DNA from: Gulosibacter sp. 10
GTDB lineage: Bacteria; Actinomycetota; Actinomycetes; Actinomycetales; Microbacteriaceae
Assembly (NCBI RefSeq): GCF_900163695.1
Contig: NZ_FUIC01000011.1
Location: 1-64,000 of the forward strand
Direction of reading: 5' to 3'
DNA length: 64,000 nt
The first letter of the stretch is position 1, and each line of letters starts with the position of its first letter. A model generated the notes under the pieces. That model did not search any database. It had not been told where the DNA came from and saw nothing but the letters and a program-made list of their open reading frames with translations. Shown here one piece after another: positions 15,850 through 51,019 of the stretch. A program made the translations under genes and the position numbers.

Positions 15850-17262
15850 GTGGCCGCATCGGATGAGGTGCTCAAGGTCGCCGACCTCGTCTCCACCGCG
15901 AGCCTCAACGTGCGGGTGCTCGCCGGCGAGGCCGGGATCGGCCGCGAGGTGCTCTGGGCCCACAGCTGCGAGCTGAGCGACCCGGAGCGCTGGCTGGGGC
16001 CGCACGAGCTGCTCATGACCGTGGGGCTCTGCGTCCCCGCCGAGCCCGAGGAGCAGGCGGCGTTCGTCGGCCGTCTCGACGATGCGGGGCTCGCGGGCAT
16101 CATGATCGGCGATCACGACACCGCGCCGGCCATCACGAGGCCGCTGCTCGAGGAGGCCGACCGGCGCGGGTTCCCGGTGCTGTCGGTGGTGAGCGAGACT
16201 CCCTTCGCCGTGGTGGCCCGACATGTGGCGTCGGGCACCTCCTCGGCGCAGATCCAGCAGGTGCTCAAGCTGAGCAAGCTCTACCAGGTGGCGACGAACG
16301 CGGACGACGACGCAGCGGCGCTCGTGCGCGACCTCGTCTCGCTGCTCGGGGTGGGCATCCGCGTCGAGGACCGGCTCACCGGGCTGACGATCGTGGAGGC
16401 CAACCCGACCGTGCCCGCGGGGCAGTCGCTGGAGACGCGCAGCTATCCGCTCCGCGGCACCTACGAGGCGGACCTGCATCTCGCGGAGTTCCCCCGAGAG
16501 CCCCTCGACGGCTTCCTCCTGGTGCACCTGCTCAAAGTGCTCGAGGTCAACATCGACCGGATCATGGGGGCGTTCACGCACTGGGCCGAACGCTCCGCGC
16601 GGGCGATGACCGGCCTGCTCAACGGCACCGTGACGGCCGAGGCCGAGGAGCTGCTCGGCGACGTCTCGCTCGCAGACGGGTTCCAGGTCGCCGCCTTCGG
16701 CGGGCGGGTGGCGCCGCACGTGGCACGGGGCGTCGTGCTGCAGCGCATGACCGTGATCGTGGGGCGCTCGCGGGTCGCGCACCTCGCGCTGATCCCGCAT
16801 CGCGAGCTCGCCCGCTTCCGGGAGTTCGTGGAGGGGACGGGGAAGACCTTCGGAGTCTCCTCGACGTTCACCGACCTCCGCGATGTCCGGTCGGCGGCGG
16901 AGGAGGCGGGCCGGGTGCGCTCGGCCGGGCGGCACGGCGGTCGCAGCTGGGTGGAGTTCGAGGGCACCACGATCTCGGTGCTCGCCCGCTCGCAGCGCGA
17001 GGCGGAGGAGATCGTGGTCGGGGTGCTCGGCCCGCTCGCCGACCCGGACGGGCACGCCGACAAGCTGCGGGAGACGCTCTTCGCGTTCCTGCGCAACGAC
17101 CGGCGCTGGCGCGAGACCGCCGAGGAGCTCGGCGTGCACCGGCAGACGCTCTCCTACCGCCTCAAGCGCATCGAGGAGGAGACCGGGCTCGACGTGTCGA
17201 GCTCCGCGGACCTCTCCTCGATGTGGATCGCGTACCAGGCCTGGCAGCAGACCCGCACCTAG
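15850..17262 (+). CDS. PucR-family transcriptional regulator
   Basis: A 470-residue regulator of the PucR/CdaR type. The N-terminal sensing domain spans about residues 8-125 and includes the typical GIGREVLWAHSCELSDP and ELLMTVG. The C-terminal helix-turn-helix is clear: FLRNDRRWRETAEELGVHRQ and TLSYRLKRIEEETG. PucR-type proteins control purine, amine and amino-acid use. The gene starts with GTG 3 bases after the DUF2207 stop. It lies just upstream of the FAD oxidoreductase and peptide transporter, which it probably controls (inference). Confidence 0.88.
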   Translation: MAASDEVLKVADLVSTASLNVRVLAGEAGIGREVLWAHSCELSDPERWLGPHELLMTVGLCVPAEPEEQAAFVGRLDDAGLAGIMIGDHDTAPAITRPLLEEADRRGFPVLSVVSETPFAVVARHVASGTSSAQIQQVLKLSKLYQVATNADDDAAALVRDLVSLLGVGIRVEDRLTGLTIVEANPTVPAGQSLETRSYPLRGTYEADLHLAEFPREPLDGFLLVHLLKVLEVNIDRIMGAFTHWAERSARAMTGLLNGTVTAEAEELLGDVSLADGFQVAAFGGRVAPHVARGVVLQRMTVIVGRSRVAHLALIPHRELARFREFVEGTGKTFGVSSTFTDLRDVRSAAEEAGRVRSAGRHGGRSWVEFEGTTISVLARSQREAEEIVVGVLGPLADPDGHADKLRETLFAFLRNDRRWRETAEELGVHRQTLSYRLKRIEEETGLDVSSSADLSSMWIAYQAWQQTRT

Positions 17263-17411: not shown

Positions 17412-18830
17412 ATGTCCGCCATCCTCAACGGAGAGGTCTCGCACTGGATGCGGTCGGCCTCGCCCCGTCGCTACCACTCGCCCCTGCCGGACGAACGGCA
17501 GGATCTGCTCATCGTCGGCGCCGGGCTCACCGGGCTCTGGGCCGCCTACTTCGCGGCCAAGGAGCATCCCGACTGGAAGATCACCGTCGTCGAGGCGAAG
17601 CGGGTCGGCTACGAGGCCAGCGGCCGCAACGGCGGCTGGATGTCCACGCTGCTGCCCGGCAACCGCGCGGTGTGGGCCAAGCGCGTGAACAAGCAGGGCG
17701 GGGACGGCATCGCCGCCATGCGTGAATTCCAGCAGGCCGTGAACGCGAGCATCCACGAGGCGCTGGACATCATGCGCCGGGAGGGCATCGACGCCGGCCA
17801 GGCGCAGGGCGGCAACCTCCACGTCGCCCAGACCCCGGCCGGCTACGCCCGGCTCAAGGGCAAGTACGAGACCGACCTGCGGTACGGCTACTCGCCGGAG
17901 GACATCCGCCTGCTCGACGCGGAGGAGACGCGCGAGCGGATCAACGTCGACGGCGCCCTCGGCTCGCTCCACTACCAGCACACGACCGCGGTCGATCCCG
18001 CCCGGATGGTGGCGGGGCTCGCGGAGGCCGTCGACCGCCTCGGCGTGCGCATCTGCGAGGAGACCGCGGCCACGCGCGTCGAGAAGCAGCACGTGCTCAC
18101 GAACCGCGGACCGGTCATCGCGAACACCATCTTCGTCTGCGCCGAGGCGGCGACGGGCAAGATCGAGAGCGCGCTGCCCGGCTTCGGGCCGCGCGAGGTG
18201 ATCCCGGTCAACTCCTCGATCATCGCCACCGAGACGCTGCCGGAGCGGTTCTGGAAGCGCATCGGCTGGGACGAGCGGGACTGCCTCATGGACTCCGCGC
18301 ACACCTTCATCTACGCGCAGCGCACGCAGGACGACCGCATCGCGATCGGCGGGCGCGGCACACCGTACTTCTTCGGCTCCAAGCTCACGGGCGAGGGCGA
18401 GGTGGACGAGCGGACGATCCGGAGCCTGCGGCAGAAGCTCGCGCAACTCTTCCCCGGCGAGACGCTGCCGATCGCGCACGCGTGGCGCGGCTCGATCGGC
18501 GTGACCCGCGACTGGTGCGCCGGCCTCTTCTTCGATCGGGAGAGCCGCGTGGGCGTGGTTCGCGGCTACGCCGGGCACGGCGTGAGCTCCACGCTGCTCG
18601 CGGCGAAGACCCTGCTCGACCGGGCCGAGGGTCGCAGCACCGAGCTCGTCCGGATGCCGTGGAACGACCACCGGGCGAAGAAGTGGGAGCCCGAGCCCAT
18701 CCGCTGGCTCGGCGTGCACACGATGTACCGGCTGTTCGAGTACGCCGATGCGCAGGAGGCCCGCTCCGGCAAGCCGAAGACCTCGCTCATCGCGCAGTTC
18801 GGCTCGCGACTGGCGGGGCTGCACGAGTGA
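17412..18830 (+). CDS. FAD-dependent amine/amino-acid oxidoreductase (DAO superfamily)
   Basis: A 472-residue cytosolic flavoenzyme of the D-amino-acid-oxidase superfamily, similar in layout to gamma-glutamylputrescine oxidases. The FAD-binding Rossmann motif GAGLTG is at 36-41, with Glu61 ending strand two. RVGYEASGRNGG (64-75) is the hallmark of this branch, and RGYAGHGVSSTLLAAK is the C-terminal FAD-binding stretch. AAGGAG lies 9 bases before the ATG. It overlaps the peptide transporter by four bases, so both are one operon, probably importing and oxidising small peptides or amines. Exact substrate unknown. Confidence 0.85.
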   Translation: MSAILNGEVSHWMRSASPRRYHSPLPDERQDLLIVGAGLTGLWAAYFAAKEHPDWKITVVEAKRVGYEASGRNGGWMSTLLPGNRAVWAKRVNKQGGDGIAAMREFQQAVNASIHEALDIMRREGIDAGQAQGGNLHVAQTPAGYARLKGKYETDLRYGYSPEDIRLLDAEETRERINVDGALGSLHYQHTTAVDPARMVAGLAEAVDRLGVRICEETAATRVEKQHVLTNRGPVIANTIFVCAEAATGKIESALPGFGPREVIPVNSSIIATETLPERFWKRIGWDERDCLMDSAHTFIYAQRTQDDRIAIGGRGTPYFFGSKLTGEGEVDERTIRSLRQKLAQLFPGETLPIAHAWRGSIGVTRDWCAGLFFDRESRVGVVRGYAGHGVSSTLLAAKTLLDRAEGRSTELVRMPWNDHRAKKWEPEPIRWLGVHTMYRLFEYADAQEARSGKPKTSLIAQFGSRLAGLHE

Positions 18831-20287
18831 GGGTGCAGACCGAGACCCGCGCCGTCAGCGTCCACCACCTGCCCCGCACGGTCTGGGGCATGGCCTTCAC
18901 CGAGCTGTGGGAGCGCTTCTCGTTCTACGGGTTGCAGGGCATCCTGTCGTTCTACCTGCTCTACTCGCTCGTCGACGGCGGGCTCGAGCTCGGCCCCGCC
19001 GCCGCTGCCGGCATCGTCGGCGCCTACGGCGGTGCGGTGTATCTCGCGCAGCTGCTCGGCGCCTGGCTCGGCGAGCGCGTCATGAGCCCGAAGTGGATGG
19101 TGTTCTGGGGCGGGGTGATCATCACGCTCGGGCACGTGGCGCTCGCGGCGCTGCCGGGCATCCCCGGGCTCACCGCGGGCCTGCTGCTCATCGTGCTGGG
19201 CACCGGGACGCTCAAGACCAACATCACCGCGATCGTCGGGCTGGTGCTCGCGGGGCGCACCGAGGCCCAGCGCGACGTGGGCTTCGCGTACTTCTACATG
19301 TCGATCAACGTCGGCGCGGTCGTCGGACCGCTGAGCACCGGCTTCGTGCAGAACGAGTGGGGCTTCCACTGGGGCTTCGGGCTCGCGGCGGTCGGCATGC
19401 TCGCGGCGCTCGTCCAGTACGTGTTCTCGATGCGTCGCCTGCCGGAGGAGGCGAGCCTGGTGCCGCGGCCGATCTCGGGCGGGAGGCTGCTCGGCATCGG
19501 CGGCTTCGCGCTGCTCGTGGTCGTCGCGCTCGGCGCGGTCTGGGCGTTCGAGCTGGTCCGCGCCGAGCAGCTCGCCGGCATCGTCACCGCGGCCGTGCTG
19601 ATCGCGGCCGCGTGCTACTTCGTCATGATGCTCACCTCGAGGAAGGTGACCGCGGACGAGAAGCGCCGGGTGGGCGCCTATCTGCCGCTCTTCCTCGCGG
19701 CGGGCATCTACTTCGGTCTGCTCTTCCAGCAGTTCACGACGATCTCGATCCTCATCGCGGAGCGGGTGGACCTGCGGATCGGGGAGTGGAGCTTCCCCGT
19801 GGCGTGGATCACGATGATCAGCCAGCTCGCCGCGGTGGTCGTGACGCCGCTCATCGCGCAGATCTGGGGCAAGAGCGGTACCAGGGGGCCCGGCGCCCCG
19901 GCGAAGTTCGGCATCGGCCTCATCCAGATCGGCCTCGCCTACGTGCTCATGCTCGTGGTCCTGCAGGTGTTCCCCGGCGCGGCCGTGCCGCTCCTGCCGA
20001 TCATCGTCGTCATGATCGTCGCCGGTTCGTCCGAAGTGTTCGTGGGCCCCATCAGCCTGTCGCTGTCGACCCGCATCGGACCGGAGGCGTTCAAGTCGCA
20101 GCTCGTGGGGCTCAACTTCCTGACGCTCGCGCTGGGCTCGTCGTTCTCGGGCCTGCTCGGGCAGCTGTTCTCGATCACGGACGACGTGACGTACTTCCTG
20201 CTGGTCATCGCGATCGGCGTCGTGCTCGGGGGCGCGCTCTGGCTGGCGCGCAAGCCGCTGCAGCGGGGGCTGTTCGCGGGGCTCTAG
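18827..20287 (+). CDS. Proton-dependent peptide transporter (POT/PTR family)
   Basis: A 486-residue, about 14-helix di/tripeptide-proton symporter. POT signatures are all present: FTELWERFSFYGLQGIL in helix 1, GTGTLKTNITAIVG, and AYFYMSINVGAVVGP. The GTG at 18827 overlaps the previous stop (GTGA); a second GTG at 18833 is also possible. The overlap couples its translation to the FAD enzyme. A strong hairpin follows the stop. Confidence 0.9.
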   Translation: MRVQTETRAVSVHHLPRTVWGMAFTELWERFSFYGLQGILSFYLLYSLVDGGLELGPAAAAGIVGAYGGAVYLAQLLGAWLGERVMSPKWMVFWGGVIITLGHVALAALPGIPGLTAGLLLIVLGTGTLKTNITAIVGLVLAGRTEAQRDVGFAYFYMSINVGAVVGPLSTGFVQNEWGFHWGFGLAAVGMLAALVQYVFSMRRLPEEASLVPRPISGGRLLGIGGFALLVVVALGAVWAFELVRAEQLAGIVTAAVLIAAACYFVMMLTSRKVTADEKRRVGAYLPLFLAAGIYFGLLFQQFTTISILIAERVDLRIGEWSFPVAWITMISQLAAVVVTPLIAQIWGKSGTRGPGAPAKFGIGLIQIGLAYVLMLVVLQVFPGAAVPLLPIIVVMIVAGSSEVFVGPISLSLSTRIGPEAFKSQLVGLNFLTLALGSSFSGLLGQLFSITDDVTYFLLVIAIGVVLGGALWLARKPLQRGLFAGL

Positions 20288-20424: not shown

Positions 20425-20442
20425 TTCCACGAAGGCGTGGAA
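20425..20442. promoter_or_regulatory. Palindrome upstream of hyuA, possible operator
   Basis: TTCCACG-AAGG-CGTGGAA is a perfect 7-bp inverted repeat about 70 bases before hyuA. It is a candidate binding site for the LuxR/binding-protein regulator encoded across from hyuB, but it could be chance. Confidence 0.35.
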
Positions 20443-20510
20443 CCCGGCCGGCCCTCGACGCAGAGGACGGCGGGGCATCCGAGGGGCACGATGCAGTGTT
20501 AAGGAATGCA

Positions 20511-22556
20511 ATGTTTCGAGTTGGTGTAGACATCGGTGGGACATTCACCGACCTCTATGCGTGGGACGAGGAGAATCCGACGAATTCGGGGGTGCGGACG
20601 GCGAAGGTGCTGTCGACGCCGCAGGACCCGTCCCTCGGCGTGATCGATGCGCTGGAGAAGGCGGAGATCCTACCCGCCGAGATCTCCACGCTGGTGCACG
20701 GGACGACGATCGGGACCAATGCCCTGATCGAGCGCAAGTATCCGGATCCCGCGCTGATCACGACGAGCGGCTTCCGGGATGTGCTCGAGGTGGGGCGGCA
20801 GCGCCGGCAGGCGCTCTACGACCCCTACCAGGTGAAGCCGAAGCCGCTCATCTCCCGTCGCAACCGCTATACCGTCGTGGAGAAGATGGGCGCGGACGGC
20901 GAACCGGTGAAGCCGATCGACCGCGAGGAGCTGCTCGAGGTGGTGGCGGAGATCCGCGATCGGGGTATCAAGAACATCGCGATCGCGTTCATCAACGCGT
21001 ATCAGAACGGCGAGCACGAGCGGATCGCGCGCGAAGCGGTGCTGGAGCTGATCCCCGACGCCTCGGTGGCGCTCTCCTCCGAGACGCGGCCGAAGCTCCG
21101 GGAGCTGGGCCGCTTCACCACCACCGCCATCCGCGCGGCGCTGCTACCCGTGGTCGGCGATTACATGGCCCGCCTCGAGCAGCAGCTGAAGTCCCAGGGG
21201 TCCACCGCGCCGCTCTACATCGTCAAGAGCAACGGCGGGATGATGAGCAGCGCCGCCGCCAAGCAGCGCCCCGAGGAGCTCATCGAGTCGGGGCCGGCGG
21301 GCGGGGTCGCGGCCGGCGCCTACATCGGGAGGCTGCTCGACCTGCCCAACCTCATCGTCACCGATGTGGGCGGTACGAGCTACGAGGCCGCGCTGCTCGA
21401 AGACGGGCGGGGACTCGTCACCGACGAGTACGAGCTCGAGTGGGAGATGCCCGTCATTGTGCCGATGCTCGACATCCGCAGCATCGGGGCGGGCGGCGGC
21501 TCGATCGCGTGGATCGACGACGGCGGCTCGCTGCGGGTCGGACCGCAGAGCGCCGGCTCGGTGCCGGGCCCGGCCTGCTACGGGCGCGGCGGCGAGAACC
21601 CCACGGTGACCGACGCCAACCTGGTCCTGGGACGGATCAGCCCCGATCTCGGCGGCAAGTTCGAGCTCGACCTCGCCGCGGCGGAGTCGGCGGTCGGCGG
21701 TCTGGCCGAACGGCTCGGCATGACCGTGCCGGAATGCGCGGAGGGCATCATCCGCGTCGTCAGCGAGGGCATGGCGGGCGCGATACGGATGGTGTCGAGC
21801 GACCGCGGCCGCGACCCCCGGGACCACTCGCTGGTCGCGTTCGGCGGCGCGGGAGGGCTGCACGCCTTCGAGGTCGCCAAGGCCGCTGGGGTCGAGCAGA
21901 TCGTCGTCCCGCCCTACGCCGGGGTCGCCTGCGCCTTCGGCGCGATCACGATGGACGTGCGGCACGACCTCGAGACGACGTTCTACTCGCCGCTGGAGGG
22001 CGCGGACTTCGCCGCCCTCAACGCCGAGTTCGAGGCGCTCGAGGAGCGGGCGCGCGAGCTGCTCATCGCGGACGGCGCGGATCCCGATACGGCCGTGCTG
22101 GACCGCTCCGCCGCGATGCGATACATCGGGCAGTCGTACGAGGTCACCACCCCGCTCCCGTCGGGGACGCTGGGACCGGACTCCGTCGACGAGGTGCTGC
22201 GGGCGTTCTACGCCGAGCACGAGCGGGAGTACGGCCTCTACTCGACCGAGTTCCCGGTCGCGCTCGTGAACCTCCGGGTCACCGCGGTGGGCCTGACGCA
22301 GAAGCCCAGCGACGACTCGATGGCCGGCTCCGCCGCGGAGGCGAACGTCGAGCCGAAGACCCGGACGGTCTTCTTCGACGGCGAGTTCCAGGAGATCCCG
22401 GTCTACGACTCCCAGGCCGTCGCCTCCGGGCTCAGGATCGAGGGGCCGTCCATCGTCGAGCAGAAGGACGGGGTCGTCGTCATCCCCGCCGATGCGGTCG
22501 CGCGCATCGATCAGTACGGACACATCATTCTCCAGAGCAAGGGAGCGCAGTCATGA
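20511..22556 (+). CDS. hyuA: Hydantoinase/oxoprolinase subunit A
   Basis: A 681-residue ATP-dependent hydrolase subunit of the HyuA/N-methylhydantoinase A/oxoprolinase/acetone-carboxylase family. It holds the sugar-kinase-like ATP-binding fold: RVGVDIGGTFTDL at the start, TDVGGTSYEAAL midway and FGGAGGLHAF. It works with HyuB to open cyclic amides such as hydantoins or 5-oxoproline. The ATG at 20511 has AAGGA 5 bases upstream; a GTG 15 bases earlier lacks such a site. The next gene overlaps by four bases. The true substrate cannot be told from sequence. Confidence 0.92.
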   Translation: MFRVGVDIGGTFTDLYAWDEENPTNSGVRTAKVLSTPQDPSLGVIDALEKAEILPAEISTLVHGTTIGTNALIERKYPDPALITTSGFRDVLEVGRQRRQALYDPYQVKPKPLISRRNRYTVVEKMGADGEPVKPIDREELLEVVAEIRDRGIKNIAIAFINAYQNGEHERIAREAVLELIPDASVALSSETRPKLRELGRFTTTAIRAALLPVVGDYMARLEQQLKSQGSTAPLYIVKSNGGMMSSAAAKQRPEELIESGPAGGVAAGAYIGRLLDLPNLIVTDVGGTSYEAALLEDGRGLVTDEYELEWEMPVIVPMLDIRSIGAGGGSIAWIDDGGSLRVGPQSAGSVPGPACYGRGGENPTVTDANLVLGRISPDLGGKFELDLAAAESAVGGLAERLGMTVPECAEGIIRVVSEGMAGAIRMVSSDRGRDPRDHSLVAFGGAGGLHAFEVAKAAGVEQIVVPPYAGVACAFGAITMDVRHDLETTFYSPLEGADFAALNAEFEALEERARELLIADGADPDTAVLDRSAAMRYIGQSYEVTTPLPSGTLGPDSVDEVLRAFYAEHEREYGLYSTEFPVALVNLRVTAVGLTQKPSDDSMAGSAAEANVEPKTRTVFFDGEFQEIPVYDSQAVASGLRIEGPSIVEQKDGVVVIPADAVARIDQYGHIILQSKGAQS

Positions 22557-24322
22557 CCACCGCCCAGCGCCATACGCAACTCGACCCGGTGACCTTCGAG
22601 GTCATGCGCAGAGGCTTCGAATACTCCTGCGAGCGGATGTCCCAGGTGCTGCAGAAGTCCTCGTTCTCGCCGATCATCTACGACATGGTCGACTTCTCGA
22701 ACGCGGTCTTCGATGCGGACGTCGAGCTCATCGGCCAGACGGCCAACTGCCCGGTCCACATCGCCGCGATGCATTTCAGCGCGAGGGCCTCGCTCGAGCG
22801 ATTCCCCCGCGAGGGTCTGCGCGAGAACGACGTCGTCGTGCTCAACGACCCGTACATGGGCGGCACGCACACCCCCGATGTCACGCTGACCGCGCCGATC
22901 TTCTTCGAGGGAGAGATCATCGCCTTCGCGGTATCGCGCGCCCACTGGACCGACGTGGGCCAGGGAATGGACACCCACATCGCCGGCGAGGGCCTCCGGC
23001 TGCCTCCGAACAAGCTCGTCGCCGAGGGCGAGATCGACCAGGACATCGTCGCGATCATCAAGAACATGTCCCGCACGCCGCAGTACGTCGAGGGCGACAT
23101 CCAGGCGCAGATCGGCGCGCTCTGGGCGGGACGGGACGAGATCCTCCGGCTCGCGCGCAAGTACGGCGCGGAGCGGCTGCGCCAGGGCATGCGGGACGTG
23201 CTCGACTACACCGAGACGATGACCCGTCGGGCGATCGAGCGGATCCCGGACGGCGAGTACGAGGGCGCCGACTACGTCGACAGCGACGGATACAGCGACG
23301 AGCCGGTCAGGGTCCGGGCGCGACTCGAGGTGCGGGGCGATCGCATCCACGTCGACCTCACCGGCTCCGATCCGCAGGTGGAGGGGCCGATCAACTCGCC
23401 CTGGGCGAATACGGTGTCGGCGATCTACTACTCGCTGAAGTTCTTCCTCAACCCCGACGCCCCTGCGAACGCGGGCATGTACCGGCAGATCGACATCACC
23501 ATCCCCGAGGGCACCTGGCTGAACCCGCGCTGGCCGGCACCCACGCTCGGATGCACGACGGCGTCCTCATCGAAGGTCACCGGATCGATCTGGACCGCGC
23601 TGGCCCACGCGATCCCCGACCGGATCGTGGCCTCCACCTACGCGGAGGCGAACTGGTTCACCGCCAGCGTGTCGGATCCCGGAACGCGCGAGGTGCACGT
23701 GTTCTCGGACCTGCCGGCCGGAGGCTGGGGAGGGACGCCGTTCAACGACGGCATGCACGTCACGCAGGATCCGCTCGGCAACTGCCAGAACCTGCCCGCA
23801 GAGACGGCCGAGCTGCTCTTCCCCATCCGGTACAACGCCTTCGAGATGCTGACCGATTCGCCCGGCGCCGGAAAGTACCGGGGAGGGGCGGGGGTGCGGC
23901 TCGAGGTCGAGTTCATCGGCCGCGGCCAGATCATCACGATGGAGTCCTCCCGGACCAGGGAAGGCTCTCCCGGAACGAACGGAGGATTGCGCGGAGCGCG
24001 GCAGAAGCAGCAGCGCCGACGCTCGGACGGCGCGCTCGAGACGATCGGCGGAACCGACGACGCCTCGGGCGAATGGCTGCCGCAGATGCTCGGCGGCGTG
24101 CACTTCCGGCCGGGCGAGGCCTTCGTGTTCGAAAGCGGCGGCGGCGGGGGCTGGGGCGATCCGCTCGAGCGCGACGAGCGCGCCGTGCTCGATGACGTCC
24201 GCAACGAGATCATCTCGGCGGCGACCGCGCTGGACGCGTACGGCGTGGTGGTGACCGACGGCCTCGAGCTCGACGAGGGGGCCACCGAATCGGTTCGCGC
24301 CGAGCGCGCCCGCGCCGAGTAG
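22553..24322 (+). CDS. hyuB: Hydantoinase/oxoprolinase subunit B
   Basis: A 589-residue partner of HyuA. Family markers are DPVTFEVMRRGFEYSCERMS, VLNDPYMGGTHTPDVTL, AHWTDVGQ and, near the end, GAGKYRGGAG and GGGGGWGDPLERD. The ATG overlaps the hyuA stop (ATGA), so the subunits are translationally coupled. It ends 77 bases from the end of a convergent regulator gene. No hydantoin transporter or carbamoylase lies beside it; the POT transporter just upstream has its own terminator. Confidence 0.93.
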   Translation: MTTAQRHTQLDPVTFEVMRRGFEYSCERMSQVLQKSSFSPIIYDMVDFSNAVFDADVELIGQTANCPVHIAAMHFSARASLERFPREGLRENDVVVLNDPYMGGTHTPDVTLTAPIFFEGEIIAFAVSRAHWTDVGQGMDTHIAGEGLRLPPNKLVAEGEIDQDIVAIIKNMSRTPQYVEGDIQAQIGALWAGRDEILRLARKYGAERLRQGMRDVLDYTETMTRRAIERIPDGEYEGADYVDSDGYSDEPVRVRARLEVRGDRIHVDLTGSDPQVEGPINSPWANTVSAIYYSLKFFLNPDAPANAGMYRQIDITIPEGTWLNPRWPAPTLGCTTASSSKVTGSIWTALAHAIPDRIVASTYAEANWFTASVSDPGTREVHVFSDLPAGGWGGTPFNDGMHVTQDPLGNCQNLPAETAELLFPIRYNAFEMLTDSPGAGKYRGGAGVRLEVEFIGRGQIITMESSRTREGSPGTNGGLRGARQKQQRRRSDGALETIGGTDDASGEWLPQMLGGVHFRPGEAFVFESGGGGGWGDPLERDERAVLDDVRNEIISAATALDAYGVVVTDGLELDEGATESVRAERARAE

Positions 24323-24398: not shown

Positions 24399-26162
24399 TC
24401 AGCGCGTCCAGGGCGGCGCGCGGAATCTGCCGGCTGCGTAGATCCGCGGGTGGATCAGGACATCCTGCCCGTCCTGGATCTGGAAGACCGTGTGCGCCTG
24501 GGCGAGGGACGGATCCTCGGATGTGCTGCCGAGCCCGAGCGTGCCCCCGCCCGGGGTCTCGAAGCTGTAGGGCCCGTTGACCCCGCGGTGGCGCGTCTCC
24601 AGAAGACGCGCCGCGACGGCGTCGAAGTCGGACGGGTCGCTCTGCCCCCACGCCTGGGCGAGCACCTCGACCCGGTCGAAGCTGAGCCCGGCGTGCGATC
24701 GCCCGGGCTCCACGCCGAATCGCCGCCGGTACTGCTCGACGAATCGCGCGCCGACCCGGTCGGAGTAGGTGCCCGTCGTCGTGGCCCAGATGATCCCCTC
24801 GGCGCCGTCGCCGAGCCGGTGCTTGAACTCGGGGATGGACGGCGCATAGACCGCGTGCACCAGCGCGTCCGCCCCTCGGCGGAGGAACTCCGCCATGAAC
24901 GCGGCGTGATCCTCGACGAAGTAGCTCGCGAGCATCACCGCGGCCGGTCGTCGCCGCGCCGCCTCCACGGCGGCATCGGACCAGTTCGACGGGCTGCCCG
25001 TGCGGCCGTCCGCCACCGAGACGGTCTCGACCTCCCAGCCGTGCCGCTCGCCGAGCCGCTGCGCCGGGAGCACCCCGAAATCGACGATCGCCCAGTCGCT
25101 CTGCTGCACGACCATCAGCCGGGGCGAGCCGGGGCGCCAGAGGCCCGCCGCGCGGAGATCCGTGGCGTGCTTCACGAAGCCGGGCGCGTAGTCCGCATCC
25201 GGAGGGCAGAACTGGAACACGCCGCGGTAGCGGTCGCGATCGGCCGAGACGAATCGCTCGGTCGCGGCGGAGGCGGAGGAATGGAGGAAGGGGATCCCCT
25301 CGACCCCGCTGCGGTCGATCGCGACGAGCTGATGCGCGAAGTATCCGGAGGTGACCGCCTCGACGCCGCGCCGGATCAGCCGGTCGAGGCCGCCTCGCAG
25401 GGAGCGCTCGTCATCGATGTCGACGCCGACGGGAAGCAGGTTCAGGCTCCTGCCCCGGATGCCGCCGCGCGCGTTGATCTGCTCCACGGCGAGGAGCGCT
25501 CCGCGGAGCATCGCGTTCCCGTCGTCGGCGGCCCGACCGGCTCTCGGGATGAGTGCGCCGATCGTGAGCGGGCTCTGCACAGGAGTGCGCGGGGAGAGCA
25601 GGCCGTCGTCGCGGCGGCGCCCCTTGGAAGCGGCGATCCGGGCGAGCGTCAGCGGCAGGGCGCCGATGTCCTCGACGGGCAGCGGAAACCGCAGCAGCGA
25701 CTGGTTGTACGCGGTCGCGCCGACCTGCGCGCGGTTCGTCGCGCCGAGTTTGCGCATGAGGTTGGTGACGTGCGTGGTCACGGTTCGCAGGCTCAGCACG
25801 AGCCCCTCGGCGATGTCCCGATTCGAGCATCCGGCCGCGATGAGCGTCACGATGTCGAGCTCGCGCGGGCTCAGGCCGTATGCGAGCTCCCGCAATCGCC
25901 ACGCGTGGACCCGACAAGCCGGTCCGTCCGGAAGCATCTCGCGGATGAGGTCGACCTGCCAGTGCTCCCGAGCCAGGCTCGTGCTCCAGACGAAGCCGAC
26001 GTGCAGGCAGCGCTCGTAGAGCAGCCCCTGCGCGAGCTCGACGAGCTCGGCGGGTACCGGGACGAGCGGCTCGCCGAGGGCAGGTGCGACGGAGCCGTCC
26101 GAGCGGACGATCGCCTCGATGCGGTCCGCCGGATGGGCGCGGTTCGGTGTTTCGTCTGCCAT
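24399..26162 (-). CDS. One-component regulator: LuxR helix-turn-helix fused to a type-1 periplasmic-binding-protein domain
   Basis: A 587-residue protein with two clear parts. Residues about 96-150 are a LuxR/FixJ-type helix-turn-helix (LSPRELDIVTLIAAGCSNRD then IAEGLVLSLRTVTTHVTNLM). Residues about 198-580 look like a leucine/amide-binding protein (Peripla_BP_6): LTIGALIPRAGRAADDGNAM and AVEQINARGGIRGRSL at its start. There is no signal peptide, so the binding domain should sense a ligand in the cytoplasm, as AmiC does. The first ~90 residues are unassigned. The ATG at 26162 has AGG 6 bases upstream; a GTG at 26168 is possible. It faces hyuAB, whose substrate is a candidate ligand (inference). 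Confidence 0.85.
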   Translation of the reverse strand: MADETPNRAHPADRIEAIVRSDGSVAPALGEPLVPVPAELVELAQGLLYERCLHVGFVWSTSLAREHWQVDLIREMLPDGPACRVHAWRLRELAYGLSPRELDIVTLIAAGCSNRDIAEGLVLSLRTVTTHVTNLMRKLGATNRAQVGATAYNQSLLRFPLPVEDIGALPLTLARIAASKGRRRDDGLLSPRTPVQSPLTIGALIPRAGRAADDGNAMLRGALLAVEQINARGGIRGRSLNLLPVGVDIDDERSLRGGLDRLIRRGVEAVTSGYFAHQLVAIDRSGVEGIPFLHSSASAATERFVSADRDRYRGVFQFCPPDADYAPGFVKHATDLRAAGLWRPGSPRLMVVQQSDWAIVDFGVLPAQRLGERHGWEVETVSVADGRTGSPSNWSDAAVEAARRRPAAVMLASYFVEDHAAFMAEFLRRGADALVHAVYAPSIPEFKHRLGDGAEGIIWATTTGTYSDRVGARFVEQYRRRFGVEPGRSHAGLSFDRVEVLAQAWGQSDPSDFDAVAARLLETRHRGVNGPYSFETPGGGTLGLGSTSEDPSLAQAHTVFQIQDGQDVLIHPRIYAAGRFRAPPWTR

Positions 26163-42426: not shown

Positions 42427-44400
42427 ATGACGACCAACAGCGTTCCTCTCCGTTCCGGCATCGACATCGAGTCATTCGACGAGGGCGTGCGCCCGCAGGA
42501 CGACCTCTTCCGGCATGTCAACGGCCGGTGGATCGCCGAGACCGAGATCCCTGCCGACAAGGCCTCCTACGGGTCCTTCCACCGGCTGGGCGACGAGTCG
42601 GAGGAGGCGGTCCGCGCCATCCTGGAGGAGTCGAAGGAGGCCGAGGAGGGCTCCGGCATCCGCAAGGCGGCGGATGCCTACGCCGCGTTCATGGACGAGG
42701 AGACCCTCGCGCGCCTCGGCGCCGACCCGATCTCGCAGGACGTCATGCAGGCGCTCGTGGTCTCGTCGATCGAGGAGTTCCTCTGGGTCCTGGGCCGGCA
42801 GGAGCGCCGCGGCGTCGGCGGCTTCTTCGGGCAGGACGTCTTCGGCGACCTGGGCGACCCGGGCGTCAACGCGCTCTACTTCGAGCAGTCCGGCCTCGGG
42901 CTGCCGGACGAGTCCTACTACCGCGAGGAGCAGTACGAGCCGATCCGCGAGGCCTACCGCGCGCACATCGCCCGGATGCTCGGGCTCGCCGAGGTGCCCA
43001 AGGCGCAGGAGCGCGCCGAGCGGGTCTTCGCCCTCGAGACCGCGATCGCCTCGCACCACTGGGACGTCGTGAAGACGCGCGAGGCGGACCTCATCTACAA
43101 CCCGACGACGCTCGAGGAGTTCCTCGCGCGCTTCGAGGGCCTCGACATGCGCGGCTGGATGCAGGAGCTGCAGGCGCCCGAGGGCACCTTCGACCGCTTC
43201 GTGCTCTGCCAGCCCAGCTTCGCCGACGGCGTCGCGGGCCTGCTCGTCGAGGAGCGCCTTGAGCAGTGGCGCGACTGGCTCATCTGGCGCATCGTGCTCG
43301 CCCACGCCTCGGTGCTCAGCCCCGAGATCGGCGCGGCGAACTTCGAGTTCTTCGGCACGACCCTGCAGGGCGTGCCCGAGCAGCGCGACCGTTGGAAGCG
43401 CGGCGTGGGCCACGCGGAGTCGCTGCTGGGCGAGGCCATCGGCGAGGTCTACGTGGCCCGGCACTTCAAGCCGGAGTCGAAGGCCGCGATGGACGATCTC
43501 GTCGCCGACCTGCTCGCGGCCTACCGCGATTCGATCGAGCGGCTCGAGTGGATGAGCCCGGCCACGCGCGAGCGCGCGCTCGAGAAGCTCGCGAAGTTCA
43601 CGCCGAAGATTGGCTACCCGCCGAAGTGGCGCGACTACTCCGAGCTGCACATCTCGCCCCGCGACCTCGTGGGCAACGTGCGGCGGGCGGCCGTGTTCCA
43701 GCAGGACTGGGAGTACTCGAAGGTCGGCAACCCGGTCGACCGCGAGCTGTGGCTCATGACCCCGCAGACGGTCAACGCGTACTACATGCCGCCGCAGAAC
43801 GAGATCGTCTTCCCGGCCGCGATCCTGCAGTACCCGTTCTTCGACGTGGCGCGCGATGCGGCCGCCAACTACGGCGCGATCGGCGCCGTGATCGGTCACG
43901 AGATCGGCCACGGCTTCGACGACCAGGGGTCCAAGTACGACGGCGACGGGCGGCTCGAGAACTGGTGGACCGAGGAGGACCGCGAGGCCTTCGAGCGCCA
44001 CACGGCCTCGCTCATCGGCCAGTACTCGGCGCTCACGCCCACGGGGCTCGAGGAGACCGACAAGGTCAACGGCGAGTTCACGATCGGCGAGAACATCGGC
44101 GACCTCGGCGGGCTGGGCATCGCGTGGAAGGCCTATCAGCGCCACCTCGACGGCGCCGAGGCGCCCGTCATCGACGGGCTCACCGGCGCGGAGCGCTTCT
44201 TCCTCTCGTGGGCGCAGGCCTGGCGCGAGAAGCGTCGCCCGGAGTACATGAAGATGCTGCTCGCGGTCGACCCGCACTCGCCCGCCGAGTTTCGCTGCAA
44301 CCAGATCGTCCGCAACATCGACGTGTTCTACGGCACGTTCGGGGTGGAGGAGCAGGATGCGCTGTGGCTCCCGCCCGAGGAGCGCGTGACTATCTGGTAG
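42427..44400 (+). CDS. pepO: M13-family metallopeptidase (neprilysin/PepO-like)
   Basis: A 657-residue zinc endopeptidase. The active site is HExxH at about 491-495 in VIGHEIGHGFDDQG, with the third ligand Glu near 555 in ENIGDLGGLGIAW; N-A-Y-Y-M-P-P-Q-N-E-I-V-F-P is the typical upstream strand. No signal peptide, so a cytosolic oligopeptidase as in other actinobacteria. A TACCCT -10 (42415-42420) lies 6 bases before the ATG, which suggests a leaderless mRNA. Confidence 0.95.
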   Translation: MTTNSVPLRSGIDIESFDEGVRPQDDLFRHVNGRWIAETEIPADKASYGSFHRLGDESEEAVRAILEESKEAEEGSGIRKAADAYAAFMDEETLARLGADPISQDVMQALVVSSIEEFLWVLGRQERRGVGGFFGQDVFGDLGDPGVNALYFEQSGLGLPDESYYREEQYEPIREAYRAHIARMLGLAEVPKAQERAERVFALETAIASHHWDVVKTREADLIYNPTTLEEFLARFEGLDMRGWMQELQAPEGTFDRFVLCQPSFADGVAGLLVEERLEQWRDWLIWRIVLAHASVLSPEIGAANFEFFGTTLQGVPEQRDRWKRGVGHAESLLGEAIGEVYVARHFKPESKAAMDDLVADLLAAYRDSIERLEWMSPATRERALEKLAKFTPKIGYPPKWRDYSELHISPRDLVGNVRRAAVFQQDWEYSKVGNPVDRELWLMTPQTVNAYYMPPQNEIVFPAAILQYPFFDVARDAAANYGAIGAVIGHEIGHGFDDQGSKYDGDGRLENWWTEEDREAFERHTASLIGQYSALTPTGLEETDKVNGEFTIGENIGDLGGLGIAWKAYQRHLDGAEAPVIDGLTGAERFFLSWAQAWREKRRPEYMKMLLAVDPHSPAEFRCNQIVRNIDVFYGTFGVEEQDALWLPPEERVTIW

Positions 44401-46729: not shown

Positions 46730-49700
46730 ATGGCAACCCCTTTTGGCGAGGACGGGACGGGCGAACGCGGTTCGTCCCAGGAACGAGGTCGCCACGAGGC
46801 GCGGGAGACCGCGCGTGGCGACATCGAGCAGGTGCGCGTGCGGCGCGTGGAGCGCGCCGACCTCGTGCGCGAGATCCTCGAGAAGAAGCAGGCCGAGGAT
46901 CCCGGGCCGCGGGAGCAGGAGCCCCCGCGGACGCCCGAGCAGCCCGGCCCGGACTCGCCGTCCCGAGCGCCCGAGGCCGATGAGCCGGGACCGGGCGCCG
47001 CGGCATCCGGCGCGGAGCACTGGGATGCGACGCCGCGGCCGCAGCAGCAGCCGTCGGACATGCCGCCGCTGCCCGCGCTCATCCCGCAGAACTCCGAGCC
47101 GCGGGAGAGCCGGCAGCCCGCCGTGCTGCGCCCCGAGCCGCTGCCGAGCCACTCCGCTCCCAGCGTCGACGCCGACGAGGCCGTGGCCCCCACGCTGCAA
47201 TCGCTCGCCGAATGGCGCGCCGCCGAGCACGAGGCCCGGCAGCGGGTGCTCGCGGCGCAGGAGCAGGCGGGCAGCCCCCGCAGGCGCGACCGGCTCGACC
47301 CGGCCGACGACTTCGTGCGCGCCCTCCGCGCCGCCGGCGGCGCCGACTTCCTCCGGGGGCTGGTCGACGAGGTGCTGCGGCCCGACGACCTGCTCGCCTC
47401 CGGGTTCGGCCTCAGCGATCTCAAGGACGAGATTCCCGAGACCCTCACGCCGCACTCGCGTCGACTGTTCCGGCTCGGGGCCTTCGCGGGCCCGGGGATC
47501 CCCTTCATCGCGGTGCCGGCCGTGCGCCGCGCCGCGCGGGCCTTCTTCGGCAAGGAGGTGACCGGGGCGCGCGAGCTCGAGCGGGACCTGGGCGCCGCCG
47601 CCGAGCAGCACGCCATCCCGCGCGTGCTGCCGCTCACCGACCCCATCCTCGGAGATGCGGGCGCGGACGCCCTCTTCGAGCGTGTGCGCGAGCTGCTGCA
47701 CCGCGAGGACGTCCCCGAGATCGAGATCGCCTGGGGCGATCTCGAGCCCCGGCCCAGCGAATGGGATTTCGAGGGCACCGTCGAGCACGCGGCGATGCGC
47801 TTCGCGGCCCTGCTGCAGGAGGCCGCGAACTCCCCGCACCCCACGCTGCTCGTGCTGCGCGCGGAGGGGTCGCGGGACCTCGAGCAGACCGTCGAGACCA
47901 TCAGCCGGGTCATGGGCGACGACGGCCTCGGCCACGCGCGGCTGGGCATCAGCGCGCCCGTGGACCTGCCCGAGTCGAGCACGCTGCTGCGCCGCCTCGC
48001 GGGCCGCGCGCATCTGCGCCGCGAGGACGGCGGGGCGCCGGTGCGCATCGGCCTGTACCGCCTCGCGGACCGGGAGTCGGAGCGCGCCGACGCGGTGCGC
48101 CACGGCTGGAAGGTCGCGACCTACCTCGACGAGGGGGACGTGGACGCGAACATGATGCAGGTGATCGACGCGGTGCTCGCGCCGGAGCACCGCGGGGTGC
48201 TCGAGCTCGAGCTCTCGGGCGCCGAGCCCATGGACATCGCCTTCGCCGTCCATCTGGCGCGGATGCGCGAGAGCTTCGTCGCCGTCTCGGCGGTGCTCGA
48301 CGAGGGCGACGACGCGGGGCTCCGGGAGCGCTACGCGCGGCTCGGCGCGCGCGTGCACATCCGCATCCCGCTGCTGCCGGAAGACTCGTACCGGCCCGCC
48401 TGCGCGTACCTGTGGGGGCGCGTGACCCGGGCCGAGCGGCGGCTGGCGCAGCGCGAGGCGGCCCGCGACGGCCAGGACGGGGTCCACGCCGAGGACGACC
48501 GGCTGCTGCAGGCCATCGCGCGGATGCACCGCGTGGCGACCGGGCCGGTCCGCTCGCAGGTGCGCATCGCGCCCGAGGAGGCGCCCGGCATCACGGCCTC
48601 GATCGCGCTCGAGCTCTTCCCCGAGGGGCTGCTCGAGGAGGAGCCCGCGGCGTCGGCGCCAGAGCCCGGCAAGGGGCACGCCGGCTTCGACCCCGACGCG
48701 ACCACGGTGCTCGGGCGGCGCGGGGCCCAGGACGGCTCCGAGGACGCCGAGGCGTCGGCCGGCCGCGAGCTGCGGTCCCGCGACGAGGGTCGCGAGACGG
48801 GCGTCGTGCGCTCGGGCGCGGGCGACTCGGCCCCGCTCAACCCGGCGGAGACGGGCGCCGCGCCGAACCTCACCGAGGTCGTGATGGGGCTGCGCCGCGG
48901 CCGGCTGCTGCGCAACACGTTCCGCAACGAGCCCTGCTCCGATCCCACCGTGGCCGCCACACGCGAGTGGGCCACGCGGGTCCAGCGCCGCGCGGCGCGC
49001 TCCGACCTGGGCCGGGACGAGGCCGCCAGCCACCGCCTGCGCTCCGCGGACGAGATCGACGAGGTGCTCGAGCGCGCCCAGGCGGCCGGCGAGTCGTGGA
49101 GCCAGACGAGCGGATGGGAGCGCGCGGCGCGCCTCGAGCAGCTCGCGAAGGCCGTGGAGGCCAACCGCGCGCGGCTCATCGAGGTGGCGATGAACGAGAC
49201 GGGCCTGACGTTCGCCGAGGTGGACGCGGACGTGAGCCGCGCGGTCGACCTCGCGAACTACGACGCCCACCTCGCCCGGCAGCTCGACCGGATGCAGGGC
49301 GCGCGCTTCGAGCCGGTGCAGGTCTCGCTCGCCGTACCCGGCTGGATCCCCCCGGTCTCGAGCACCGCCGCGGGCGTGTTCGGCGCGCTCGCCGCGGGCA
49401 GCGCCGTGGTGCTCAAGCCCTCGCCGCGCACGCCGCGCACGGCGGCGGTGCTCGCGCGGGTGCTGTGGTCCACCGACCTCCCCGACGACCTGCTGCAGGT
49501 CGCCTCGGGCGACGACCTGGTCGTCACGGAGGAGCAGCTGGGCCGCCAGCTCATCGTGGACCCGCGGGTGGAGCGCATGATCATGCAGGGCGCATACGGC
49601 ACGGCCAAGCGCTTCTTCGGCTGGCGGCACGACCTGCCCGTGGTGGGCTCCTCGGGCGGCAAGAGCGCGGTGGTCGTCACCCCGGCGGCCGACTACGACC

Positions 49701-51019
49701 AGGCCGCAGCCGATATCGCCGCGTCCTTCACGGCTGCGACGGGGCAGCTCGCGCTGCGGCCCTCCACGGTCGTCCTCGTGGGCGCCGCCGCGCGCTCCGA
49801 GCGCTTCGTCAACCAGCTCGTCGATGCCGTCACCTCGACCCGCGTCGGCTATCCGAGCGACCACTCCGTGCACACCGGCCCGCTCGTGGCGCGCGCGGTG
49901 GGGGAGCAGCTCGCCATGCTCACCGAGCTCACCGGCGAGGAGAAGTGGCTCGTCGAGCCCCGCAGCCTCGACGACACGGGCCGACTGTGGACCCCGGGCA
50001 TCCGCACCGGCGTCACCGAGGAGTCGCCCGTCCTGCGCAACGCGACGCCGGTGCCCGTCGTGAACATCGTCACGGTCCGCACGCTCGACGAGGCCGTCGC
50101 GCTGCAGAACCGCATCGACTACGGCCTCGGCGCGGGCCTGTTCTCGCTCGACCGCGCCGAGATCGCGCAGTGGGTGCAGCAGGTCGAGGCGGGCAGCCTG
50201 TTCGTGAACCGCGACGTGCTCGGCATCACGGTGCAGCGCCAGCCCTCGGGCGGGTGGAAGCAGTCGATGATCGGCACGAAGATGAAGTCGGGCGGCCCGA
50301 ACGCCCTCATGCACCTCGGCAAGTGGCGCGCCGACGAGCACGAGCAGTCGCACACCCTGCACCTGCGGGGGCTCGAGGACCGCGTGGCCCGCCTCATCGA
50401 GGCGCTCCAGCCCGGCATGTCCTTCGACGAGTTCGAGCGGGTGCGGCGCACCGCGCTGAGCTGCCAGATCGCGTGGAACGAGGAGTTCGGCGAGGTCGTG
50501 GACGCCACGAACCTGCCGGTCGAGCGGAACCTGTTCCGCTACCGGCCCGTGGACTGCGTCATCCGCTTCTCCGAGGACGCCACCGCGGATGCGCTCGGCC
50601 AGGTGCTCGTGGCCGCCACCGTCGCGCGCGCCCGCATCCTGCTCTCCTCCGCGTGGCCGCTGCCGGCGAGCCTCGCCGCCGAGCTCGAGCTGCGCGGGGC
50701 CGGGGTGCGGGTCGAGACCAACGAGGAGTTCCTCGAGCGGCTCCGCGTCGAGGGGCTCCGGGACGCGCTGCGGCTTCGGCTCATCGGCGGCTCGCGCAGC
50801 GAGGTGTGCGAGGCGATCAGCAACGCCGTGGAGATCTCCGTGTTCTCCGACGACGTCACGCTCGCCGGCCGGGTCGAGATGCTGCCGTTCCTGCGCGAGC
50901 AGACCATCAGCATCCGCGCCGAGCGGCACGGCCGGCCCGACCCGCGGGTCGCGCGGCTGTTCCCCCACGAGCTGGTGCGGGATCCGGATGCGAGCCTGCT
51001 CGGCAGGCTCGAGGCGTAG
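46730..51019 (+). CDS. PutA-like protein with degenerate proline dehydrogenase and aldehyde dehydrogenase domains
   Basis: A 1429-residue protein with the layout of bifunctional PutA. Residues 1-195 are a disordered Pro/Glu-rich extension; about 196-650 follow the proline dehydrogenase fold; 770-1290 follow the glutamate-semialdehyde dehydrogenase fold. Key residues are missing: the PRODH K-G-A-N segment reads GLYRLADRES before HGWKVATY; the ALDH nucleophile motif G-Q-x-C reads GQLALR (~1003), and the E-L-G-G-K site reads SSGGK (~974). The frame is intact, so it is a probable pseudoenzyme under selection. A TAGTCT -10 lies 6 bases before the ATG (leaderless). It precedes ornithine aminotransferase, another P5C-linked enzyme. 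Confidence 0.8.
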   Translation: MATPFGEDGTGERGSSQERGRHEARETARGDIEQVRVRRVERADLVREILEKKQAEDPGPREQEPPRTPEQPGPDSPSRAPEADEPGPGAAASGAEHWDATPRPQQQPSDMPPLPALIPQNSEPRESRQPAVLRPEPLPSHSAPSVDADEAVAPTLQSLAEWRAAEHEARQRVLAAQEQAGSPRRRDRLDPADDFVRALRAAGGADFLRGLVDEVLRPDDLLASGFGLSDLKDEIPETLTPHSRRLFRLGAFAGPGIPFIAVPAVRRAARAFFGKEVTGARELERDLGAAAEQHAIPRVLPLTDPILGDAGADALFERVRELLHREDVPEIEIAWGDLEPRPSEWDFEGTVEHAAMRFAALLQEAANSPHPTLLVLRAEGSRDLEQTVETISRVMGDDGLGHARLGISAPVDLPESSTLLRRLAGRAHLRREDGGAPVRIGLYRLADRESERADAVRHGWKVATYLDEGDVDANMMQVIDAVLAPEHRGVLELELSGAEPMDIAFAVHLARMRESFVAVSAVLDEGDDAGLRERYARLGARVHIRIPLLPEDSYRPACAYLWGRVTRAERRLAQREAARDGQDGVHAEDDRLLQAIARMHRVATGPVRSQVRIAPEEAPGITASIALELFPEGLLEEEPAASAPEPGKGHAGFDPDATTVLGRRGAQDGSEDAEASAGRELRSRDEGRETGVVRSGAGDSAPLNPAETGAAPNLTEVVMGLRRGRLLRNTFRNEPCSDPTVAATREWATRVQRRAARSDLGRDEAASHRLRSADEIDEVLERAQAAGESWSQTSGWERAARLEQLAKAVEANRARLIEVAMNETGLTFAEVDADVSRAVDLANYDAHLARQLDRMQGARFEPVQVSLAVPGWIPPVSSTAAGVFGALAAGSAVVLKPSPRTPRTAAVLARVLWSTDLPDDLLQVASGDDLVVTEEQLGRQLIVDPRVERMIMQGAYGTAKRFFGWRHDLPVVGSSGGKSAVVVTPAADYDQAAADIAASFTAATGQLALRPSTVVLVGAAARSERFVNQLVDAVTSTRVGYPSDHSVHTGPLVARAVGEQLAMLTELTGEEKWLVEPRSLDDTGRLWTPGIRTGVTEESPVLRNATPVPVVNIVTVRTLDEAVALQNRIDYGLGAGLFSLDRAEIAQWVQQVEAGSLFVNRDVLGITVQRQPSGGWKQSMIGTKMKSGGPNALMHLGKWRADEHEQSHTLHLRGLEDRVARLIEALQPGMSFDEFERVRRTALSCQIAWNEEFGEVVDATNLPVERNLFRYRPVDCVIRFSEDATADALGQVLVAATVARARILLSSAWPLPASLAAELELRGAGVRVETNEEFLERLRVEGLRDALRLRLIGGSRSEVCEAISNAVEISVFSDDVTLAGRVEMLPFLREQTISIRAERHGRPDPRVARLFPHELVRDPDASLLGRLEA

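Follow-up and report, generated by a model that had tools for sequence, protein, structure and literature searches.

The conceptual precedent for the system described here is the amidase operon of Pseudomonas aeruginosa, in which AmiC, a cytosolic amide sensor of the LivJ type, governs amide-hydrolase genes; the available part of the published source presents AmiC and AmiR as two proteins, AmiR being an ANTAR antiterminator (PMC3795266). We analysed 64,000 nucleotides of Gulosibacter sp. 10 (Microbacteriaceae; NCBI RefSeq assembly GCF_900163695.1, contig NZ_FUIC01000011.1, positions 1 to 64,000; this whole stretch is referred to as the window) and describe a regulator gene whose product likewise carries a LivJ-type clamshell but, unlike AmiC-AmiR, holds sensor and DNA-binding GerE domain in one chain, with a PAS-like domain in front. 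The protein is probably a cytosolic one-component amide/lactam sensor-regulator that works by the mechanism proposed below.

Other families also bear comparison. LacI/GalR regulators combine a periplasmic-binding-type fold with a helix-turn-helix (HTH) in one chain, as the window protein does, but by Pfam the latter has a different HTH family and belongs to a different branch of binding proteins. The 3h5l-type branched-chain amino acid ABC transporter binding proteins (Peripla_BP_6) provide the closest solved relative by sequence and by structure, and proteins of this type also occur as exported transporter partners beside the regulator; in contrast to them, the window clamshell has no signal peptide and is carried on a transcription factor. 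The LuxR/NarL (GerE) regulators of Actinobacteria share the GerE domain, which scores above its cut-off, but in the window protein this domain lies mid-chain and the sensor is C-terminal. For 991 actinobacterial LuxR proteins surveyed in a census of 2012, the partners named are REC, PAS, HDc, AAA, CHD, FHA, PKc, TPR and CSP, and no periplasmic-binding-type partner domain appears in the accessible part of that source (PMC3466318). No description of a LuxR/LivJ-type fusion was found in titles or abstract openings of the open-access literature, where absence proves little. We regard the modules as already known and their one-chain combination as a new variant.

Architecture of the fused regulator

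The gene and the domains of its product are as follows.

24399..26162, minus strand: LuxR-SBP (substrate-binding protein) fused regulator, 587 amino acids, intact open reading frame (ORF), GerE and Peripla_BP_6 in one chain
25893..26123, minus strand: N-terminal PAS-like domain, residues 14-90, from a separate model and structural comparison
25722..25874, minus strand: GerE (LuxR/NarL-type) HTH, residues 97-147 (PF00196, E 2e-16)
24402..25577, minus strand: LivJ-type clamshell ligand-binding domain, residues 196-587, from PF13458 and structural alignment

The ORF runs from an ATG start through 587 codons, continuous and without internal stop, and along the chain the small PAS-like domain is followed by the mid-chain LuxR/GerE HTH and then by the C-terminal LivJ-type clamshell. 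Pfam assigns GerE at 59.8 bits against a curated cut-off of 23.5, and Peripla_BP_6 (PF13458) over residues 198-538 at 71.5 bits (E 1.3e-19) against 31.7; neither an ANTAR domain nor a LacI-type HTH was matched at E up to 1, and with GerE in its place a LacI-type regulator was rejected. No signal peptide was seen by eye or from the domain order (no signal-peptide program was run), and judged from its sequence the fused regulator is not an exported transporter component, though its clamshell resembles one. An earlier sequence-only reading had proposed a LuxR HTH preceding a signal-less binding-protein fold in one chain, which the reading frame and the order of the Pfam domains bear out; its view of the protein as an AmiC-like cytosolic sensor with built-in output is likewise supported by the domain order and by the structural match to AmiC given below.

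A search of the organism's own genome returned 17 further matching places, 16 of which match in either the HTH or the binding domain but not in both; the remaining one, weak at E 1.1e-4, extends over residues 96-368 and contains four stops, and no second intact fused copy was seen among the 17. A phage or viral origin was rejected, as a viral scan gave no confirmed relative and the eight matching phage records cover the HTH only.

The full-chain AlphaFold2 model has a mean predicted local distance difference test score (pLDDT) of 82 and a predicted template modelling score (pTM) of 0.66, with the linker at residues 183-195 poorly modelled. The best sequence match in the Protein Data Bank (PDB) is 3h5l, a putative transporter binding protein (residues 196-586, E 8e-40), which is also the top structural match of the clamshell (VIA-align Z 45.0 over 382 residues); the two-lobed fold and the PF13458 match are those of Peripla_BP_6/LivJ-type binding proteins. 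The second structural match is 8wch, whose title names bound L-pyroglutamate (Z 40.0 over 362 residues, 19% identity; next row 37.1); for SAR11_0655 no literature was found in open-access sources, and the ligand is taken from the PDB title. On the models, the lead of 3h5l and 8wch is a pointer toward the ligand, short of proof, because a longer alignable C-terminus may account for part of it. The likeness to an AmiC-type amide sensor is one of predicted fold: AmiC with butyramide (1qnl) aligns at Z 34.3 and urea-binding proteins at 33.6-34.2, and leucine- and valine-bound structures are also among the top structural matches.

The sequence-only reading had left about 90 N-terminal residues unassigned, and Pfam indeed finds no match there, but the structural model now suggests a fold. 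Residues 9-110 folded alone give a small alpha/beta domain (pLDDT 89) with a best VIA-align Z of 8.3; PAS is named in 12 of 50 rows and is the largest group, the other rows being unrelated proteins, and the best Foldseek match, again a PAS domain, is not significant (E 0.045). We call the modelled domain PAS-like and withhold the name PAS.

Family, gene neighbourhoods and a candidate operator

Proteins with HTH then binding domain in one frame occur at 22 other loci (numbered here with the prefix L), plus L036, a 3.7-kb contig on which the gene is cut by the contig end and which was excluded from the 22-genome counts and from the HTH listing. The fused family is rare and patchy: with the window's genome included every time, homologues were found in 3 of 249 genomes at the level of the taxonomic family, in 5 of 396 for the order and in 4 of 396 for the phylum, and among 11 genomes of the genus in 1, the window's own; these searches with alignments scored the best three candidates per genome, or the best five in the 249-genome search, and misses are possible. 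In the phylum of L030, a metagenome contig of low coverage that is perhaps misbinned, 11 of 398 genomes gave matches, only L030 being fused and the other ten having the binding domain alone. Sixteen loci lie in genomes of named species, including Leekyejoonella, Actinomycetospora and Leucobacter, and plasmid relatives were found in Agrobacterium and Paenarthrobacter, with apparently broken ones in three Paracoccus records (one inspected). The plasmid loci L009-L011 stand outside the 22 genomes, and L023-L025 and L051-L053, whose contigs match in length, were handled as the same genomes as L033, L037 and L038. At L043 (9758-11490, Actinomycetospora sp. NBRC 106375) the reading frame of the fused regulator breaks into two, through frameshift or sequencing error; this locus was retained in the neighbour counts but used neither for the alignments and the tree nor for the HTH listing.

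When 43 binding domains were placed in a tree (24 fused; the broken L011 was excluded), the division into fused and unfused proteins required 2 changes, where shuffled labels required 14.5, and a single clade (100/100) of eleven unfused proteins, which include the transporter partners, stands next to the fused ones. The window protein clusters with those of Leekyejoonella and Actinomycetospora (100/99). Two unfused rows have long branches and 17 rows an unusual composition; a single fusion event would be consistent with this tree, whose root is not settled. Both intact annotated members that were seen carry the label 'ABC transporter substrate-binding protein', so that a family of transcription factors is probably hidden among transporters.

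Genes for amide-breaking enzymes recur beside the fused regulator. Within about 10 kb of it, hyuA is found in 8 of the 22 genomes (0.4 expected from whole-genome copy numbers) and a deacetylase-fold gene (PF01522) in 16 (0.49 expected), one or the other being present in 19; the remaining three (L032, L039, L043) have an S45 penicillin-amidase homologue, identified by clustering, with Pfam run on L032 only. Neighbours were found by marker searches and gene clustering, with Pfam and NCBIfam on examples. L034 was counted as near, its hyuA having its near end about 9.4-9.6 kb and its Pfam domain about 10.3 kb away, and flanks are short in L030 (a 6.6-kb contig), L035, L037 and others, where neighbours may be missed. 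Recurring neighbours comprise the deacetylase-fold protein, hyuA/hyuB, C45 acyltransferase/hydrolases, S45 penicillin amidases and nitrilases. The link with hyuAB that the sequence-only reading had drawn from the window is thus present in relatives, but it extends to amide/lactam hydrolases generally. A Liv-type transporter with an exported, TAT-type (twin-arginine translocation) binding protein of the same family adjoins the regulator in L033, L034, L037, L038, L042 and L045, and in a seventh locus, L044, that is cut by a contig end. In many loci the regulator is divergent from its neighbours or in one run with them; it is convergent in the window, L029 and L030. In L032 and L043 (Actinomycetospora) a luciferase-like monooxygenase and the penicillin-amidase homologue lie divergent from the regulator; L039 also has this homologue, and the pairing with this enzyme departs from the rest of the family.

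In the alignment of regulator gaps a near-perfect palindrome, CATCCGTCA-NN-TGACGGATG, is present in L033, L037, L038 and L042 (Leucobacter soli), and in weaker form in L034 and L044; with its 8-2-8 layout and 2-bp spacer we take it to resemble the 7-2-7 sites of NarL. Across 26 loci, 520 kb in all, the pattern CATCNGTCANNTGACNGATG located 21 sites with no more than 3 mismatches, 6 of them those from which the motif was read, and none in reversed sequences, a control that underrates the palindrome background, for which the count in 246 genomes given below is the fairer figure. Nearly all sites lie between genes or at over-extended predicted starts: in the gap that separates the regulator from the exported binding protein, upstream of the deacetylase, in the gap between hyuA and a divergent neighbour, and upstream of a permease and of an MFS gene; one, at L031 13479, is in coding frame. 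With a stricter pattern the 22 whole genomes held 50 sites within 3 mismatches, and the control held 6. At up to 2 mismatches, 10 of 16 sites fall within about 10 kb of the regulator, some 0.5% of the sequence (binomial P ~1e-19), and 6 of 12 are at the regulator locus when the four motif-giving sites are excluded (P ~2e-11). Among off-locus sites, that of L066 lies 99 bp upstream of hyuA on another contig, with no mismatch, and that of L072 lies 26 bp upstream of a same-family binding-protein gene, with 3 mismatches to the strict pattern.

The recognition helix of the window protein reads TVTTHVTN against the usual TVSTHVEH. Residue 133, at a position that presumably corresponds to NarL Lys192, a DNA contact, is T in the window and E in at least 90% of the 12 rows of alignment A2; a changed operator is therefore likely. 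The family operator, at up to 3 mismatches, is present in 10 of the 13 loci with S129 and E133, and in 3 of the 10 loci without (Fisher P 0.04, not corrected for kinship and with groups chosen after seeing the data). Candidate operators among the closest relatives of the window protein, CATACGCATTAACGCGTATG at 6591 in L009, upstream of a nitrilase gene and not kept in L011, and AATCCGTCGAACGACGGACC at 9647 in L043, are suggestive only.

The hyuAB gene run of the window and related plasmid clusters

In the window the fused gene faces, tail to tail, a run of genes in the order PucR, FAD oxidase, POT symporter, hyuA and hyuB.

15850..17262, plus strand: PucR-family regulator, rival regulator of the hyuAB run (PF07905 and PF13556)
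17412..18830, plus strand: FAD-dependent oxidoreductase, DAO family (PF01266, E 4.9e-53)
18854..20287, plus strand: oligopeptide:H+ symporter, POT family, start approximate (TIGR00924, 319.8 bits, cut-off 130.2)
20425..20442, no strand: inverted repeat TTCCACG-N4-CGTGGAA upstream of hyuA, function not supported
20496..22556, plus strand: hyuA, hydantoinase/oxoprolinase subunit A, likely target (PF01968, PF05378, PF19278)
22562..24322, plus strand: hyuB, hydantoinase/oxoprolinase subunit B, likely target, start approximate (PF02538, E 2.9e-155)

Pfam confirms hyuA and hyuB, which lie, as first read, on the strand opposite the regulator; the arrangement is convergent, however, with 3' ends 76 bp apart, so that they share no common promoter region with it. 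The nearest NCBIfam models are caprolactamase alpha for hyuA (517 bits, below the 1000-bit cut-off) and caprolactamase beta for hyuB (311 bits, below cut-off). The inverted repeat at 20425-20442 had been put forward as an operator and does no better than chance: a perfect 7-bp inverted repeat with a spacer of 0-12 arose in 682 of 3000 shuffles of the 208-bp gap (82 of 3000 with a spacer of 4), no second exact copy was found in the genome and none in 53 loci, and the relatives' operator differs from it in sequence.

A hyuA match at E 1e-100 was found in 388 plasmid records, and five clusters among the best were inspected (L009, L011, L073, L074, L075). The window hyuA and hyuB are 49-54% identical to those of the five clusters, against 31-38% in four loci beside other fused regulators; the window oxidase is only 27-29% identical to the plasmid oxidases. 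An FAD-dependent oxidoreductase is present in all five, PucR in L009, L011, L074 and L075, succinate-semialdehyde dehydrogenase in L009, L011, L073 and L075, and gamma-aminobutyric acid (GABA) transaminase in L073. As only two of the five clusters are adjoined by the fused regulator (one broken), its link with hyuAB is recurrent, not obligatory.

The nmp cluster of Paracoccus sp. ZQW-1 was, in the available part of the report, induced 102-690 fold during N-methylpyrrolidone degradation, with nmpA/nmpB described there as N-methylhydantoin amidohydrolase, nmpC as amino acid oxidase and nmpF as semialdehyde dehydrogenase (PMC12866759). Compared with nmp clusters of Alicycliphilus and Paracoccus, as far as the accessible portions of the sources describe them (PMC12866759, PMC6987047), the window likewise has hyuAB-like genes and an FAD oxidase, and similar Paracoccus plasmid clusters also hold PucR and succinate-semialdehyde dehydrogenase; judged from gene content, these plasmid clusters would be nmp clusters. 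Unlike these, the window has no close semialdehyde dehydrogenase: a search confined to the 64 kb yielded a single match, 24.5% identical, at 49067-49927, some 25 kb away from hyuB. Because the hyuAB subtype points to gamma-lactams, the gene content of the related plasmid clusters fits them, and the induction of nmp genes offers a precedent, our guess is that the window hyuAB may act on a gamma-lactam, e.g. 2-pyrrolidone or N-methylpyrrolidone.

Several plasmids merit description in their own right. L073 (1-16007, Pseudosulfitobacter plasmid pSMR1-6), with hyuAB 51-54% identical to those of the window, also carries GABA transaminase, semialdehyde dehydrogenase, FolD, formyltetrahydrofolate deformylase and a Liv-type transporter, and by these genes resembles a plasmid for the breakdown of N-methyl-lactams. 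L074 (3714-15582, Pseudomonas amygdali plasmid p1) has the hyuAB/PucR/FAD-oxidase cluster on a conjugative plasmid near two aminoglycoside phosphotransferase genes. In L011 (6835-10415, Paracoccus pantotrophus plasmid) the nitrilase, the deacetylase and the fused regulator are each matched by several fragments and look broken, and the hyuAB, oxidase, cupin, PucR and semialdehyde dehydrogenase genes beside this region are annotated whole. On L012 (3418-7215, Aminobacter niigataensis DMFA1 plasmid p1) a GerE response regulator, a hybrid histidine kinase and a same-family binding protein without visible signal peptide follow one another, and an N,N-dimethylformamidase gene lies about 2.5 kb away; the three may link an AmiC-like cytosolic sensor of amides to a two-component system.

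Proposed mechanism, competing readings and significance

In the mechanism that we propose, the C-terminal LivJ-type clamshell would bind a small amide, lactams, cyclic imides and related amides being the likeliest, and its closure would rearrange the mid-chain GerE domains within a dimer, the PAS-like domain probably serving dimerisation or a second signal. In relatives the GerE dimer would probably bind CATCCGTCA-NN-TGACGGATG upstream of the regulator, the matching ABC transporter and amide-hydrolase genes. The protein would most likely be a ligand-dependent activator, preferred over a repressor only because of the habit of LuxR-type proteins, and in the window it would be expected to control the PucR/oxidase/symporter/hyuAB run via a diverged, putative operator. 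More tentatively, as a wider proposal to which we would not yet commit ourselves, the proteins may form a distinct undescribed sensor family, in which a sister of the transporter's own binding protein, joined behind a PAS-LuxR module, would read the same imported compound in the cytosol and drive transporter and hydrolase genes via one palindromic operator, with hydrolase partners differing by lineage and the operator changing with the recognition helix.

Several observations weigh against this account. The lineages of the 22 genomes are not independent of one another, and the deacetylase, the commonest neighbour elsewhere, is missing from the window; an amide substrate of the deacetylases is moreover presumed, two having been typed (L009 nearest allantoinase PuuE, L045 nearest an XrtA-system deacetylase), both far below the model cut-offs. 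The palindrome, conserved in relatives as would suit a LuxR/GerE regulator, is absent from the window's genome (no matches at up to 3 mismatches; the best in the 64 kb, at 42657 and far from the regulator, has 4) and, at up to 3 mismatches, from the loci of the nearest relatives L029, L032 and L039. A site at up to 2 mismatches is held by 47 of 246 genomes of the taxonomic family without a detected fused homologue, so that lone off-locus sites may be background; four of the seven off-locus sites inspected (L068-L071) lie inside predicted genes, and that of L067, 422 bp from a penicillin-amidase homologue, is overlapped by a small predicted ORF. In the window the regulator and hyuB converge and PucR is the first gene of the run, and three of the five plasmid loci (L073-L075) have no fused regulator in the stretch fetched.

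These last points suit the reading that the window hyuAB run is under PucR and that the fused protein is a newcomer controlling other genes or only itself: PucR stands on the same strand as the run it heads, L074 and L075 (hyuA about 50% identical) have PucR and, in the stretch fetched, no fused regulator, and the family operator is missing from the genome. L009 and L011, however, hold both PucR and the fused regulator (broken in L011), and the linkage with hyuA recurs in Actinobacteria with regulator and hyuA divergent (L042, L044, L046), and we consider PucR control an unlikely rival. That two genes were joined by frameshift or assembly error, which the sequence-only reading had named as a possible refutation, is hardly credible given the continuous ORF and the recurrence of HTH plus binding domain within a single frame at 22 further loci. 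The PAS-like domain could instead be the sensor, with the clamshell reduced to a dimerisation or docking part; PAS-like folds are common sensors and the HTH follows directly, but conservation is lower in the N-terminal domain (column identity averages 37% in alignment A7 vs 48% for the full chain in alignment A5) and the clamshell keeps invariant residues common to exported transporter proteins, which makes this very improbable.

As to the ligand of the clamshell, LivJ Glu226 and Ser79 bind the ammonium and carboxylate of leucine, respectively. In a profile alignment with E. coli LivJ, Tyr439 aligns with the former (Glu249 of the precursor) and a position variable in the fused proteins with the latter (precursor Ser102); Tyr439, Tyr274 and His294 are invariant across 15 fused proteins (alignment A5), and the Tyr439 and His294 columns stay invariant in an alignment including six exported transporter proteins. 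Branched amino acids are less likely because an invariant tyrosine replaces the ammonium-binding glutamate, and the sequence speaks against an ordinary alpha-amino acid. The LivJ-type fold, the leucine- and valine-bound structures among the top matches and the release of amino acids or amines by hyuAB, deacetylases and acylases would favour the sensing of an amino acid (product or branched-chain) instead of an amide, a reading that we nevertheless doubt in view of these replaced residues; an omega-amino acid such as GABA or N-methyl-GABA stays among the candidates. By class, the predicted ligand of the sensor is an amide or lactam, a lactam or cyclic imide being most likely, so that from the earlier idea of a hydantoin, 5-oxoproline or derived amino acid the amide link is kept and broadened to amides and lactams generally.

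The family is tied to genes that break amides and lactams, a compound class that includes industrial solvents and nylon precursors, and a fused regulator of this kind would be a compact natural biosensor on offer. With a palindrome and a matching transporter at hand in relatives, both DNA binding and ligand would be directly testable.

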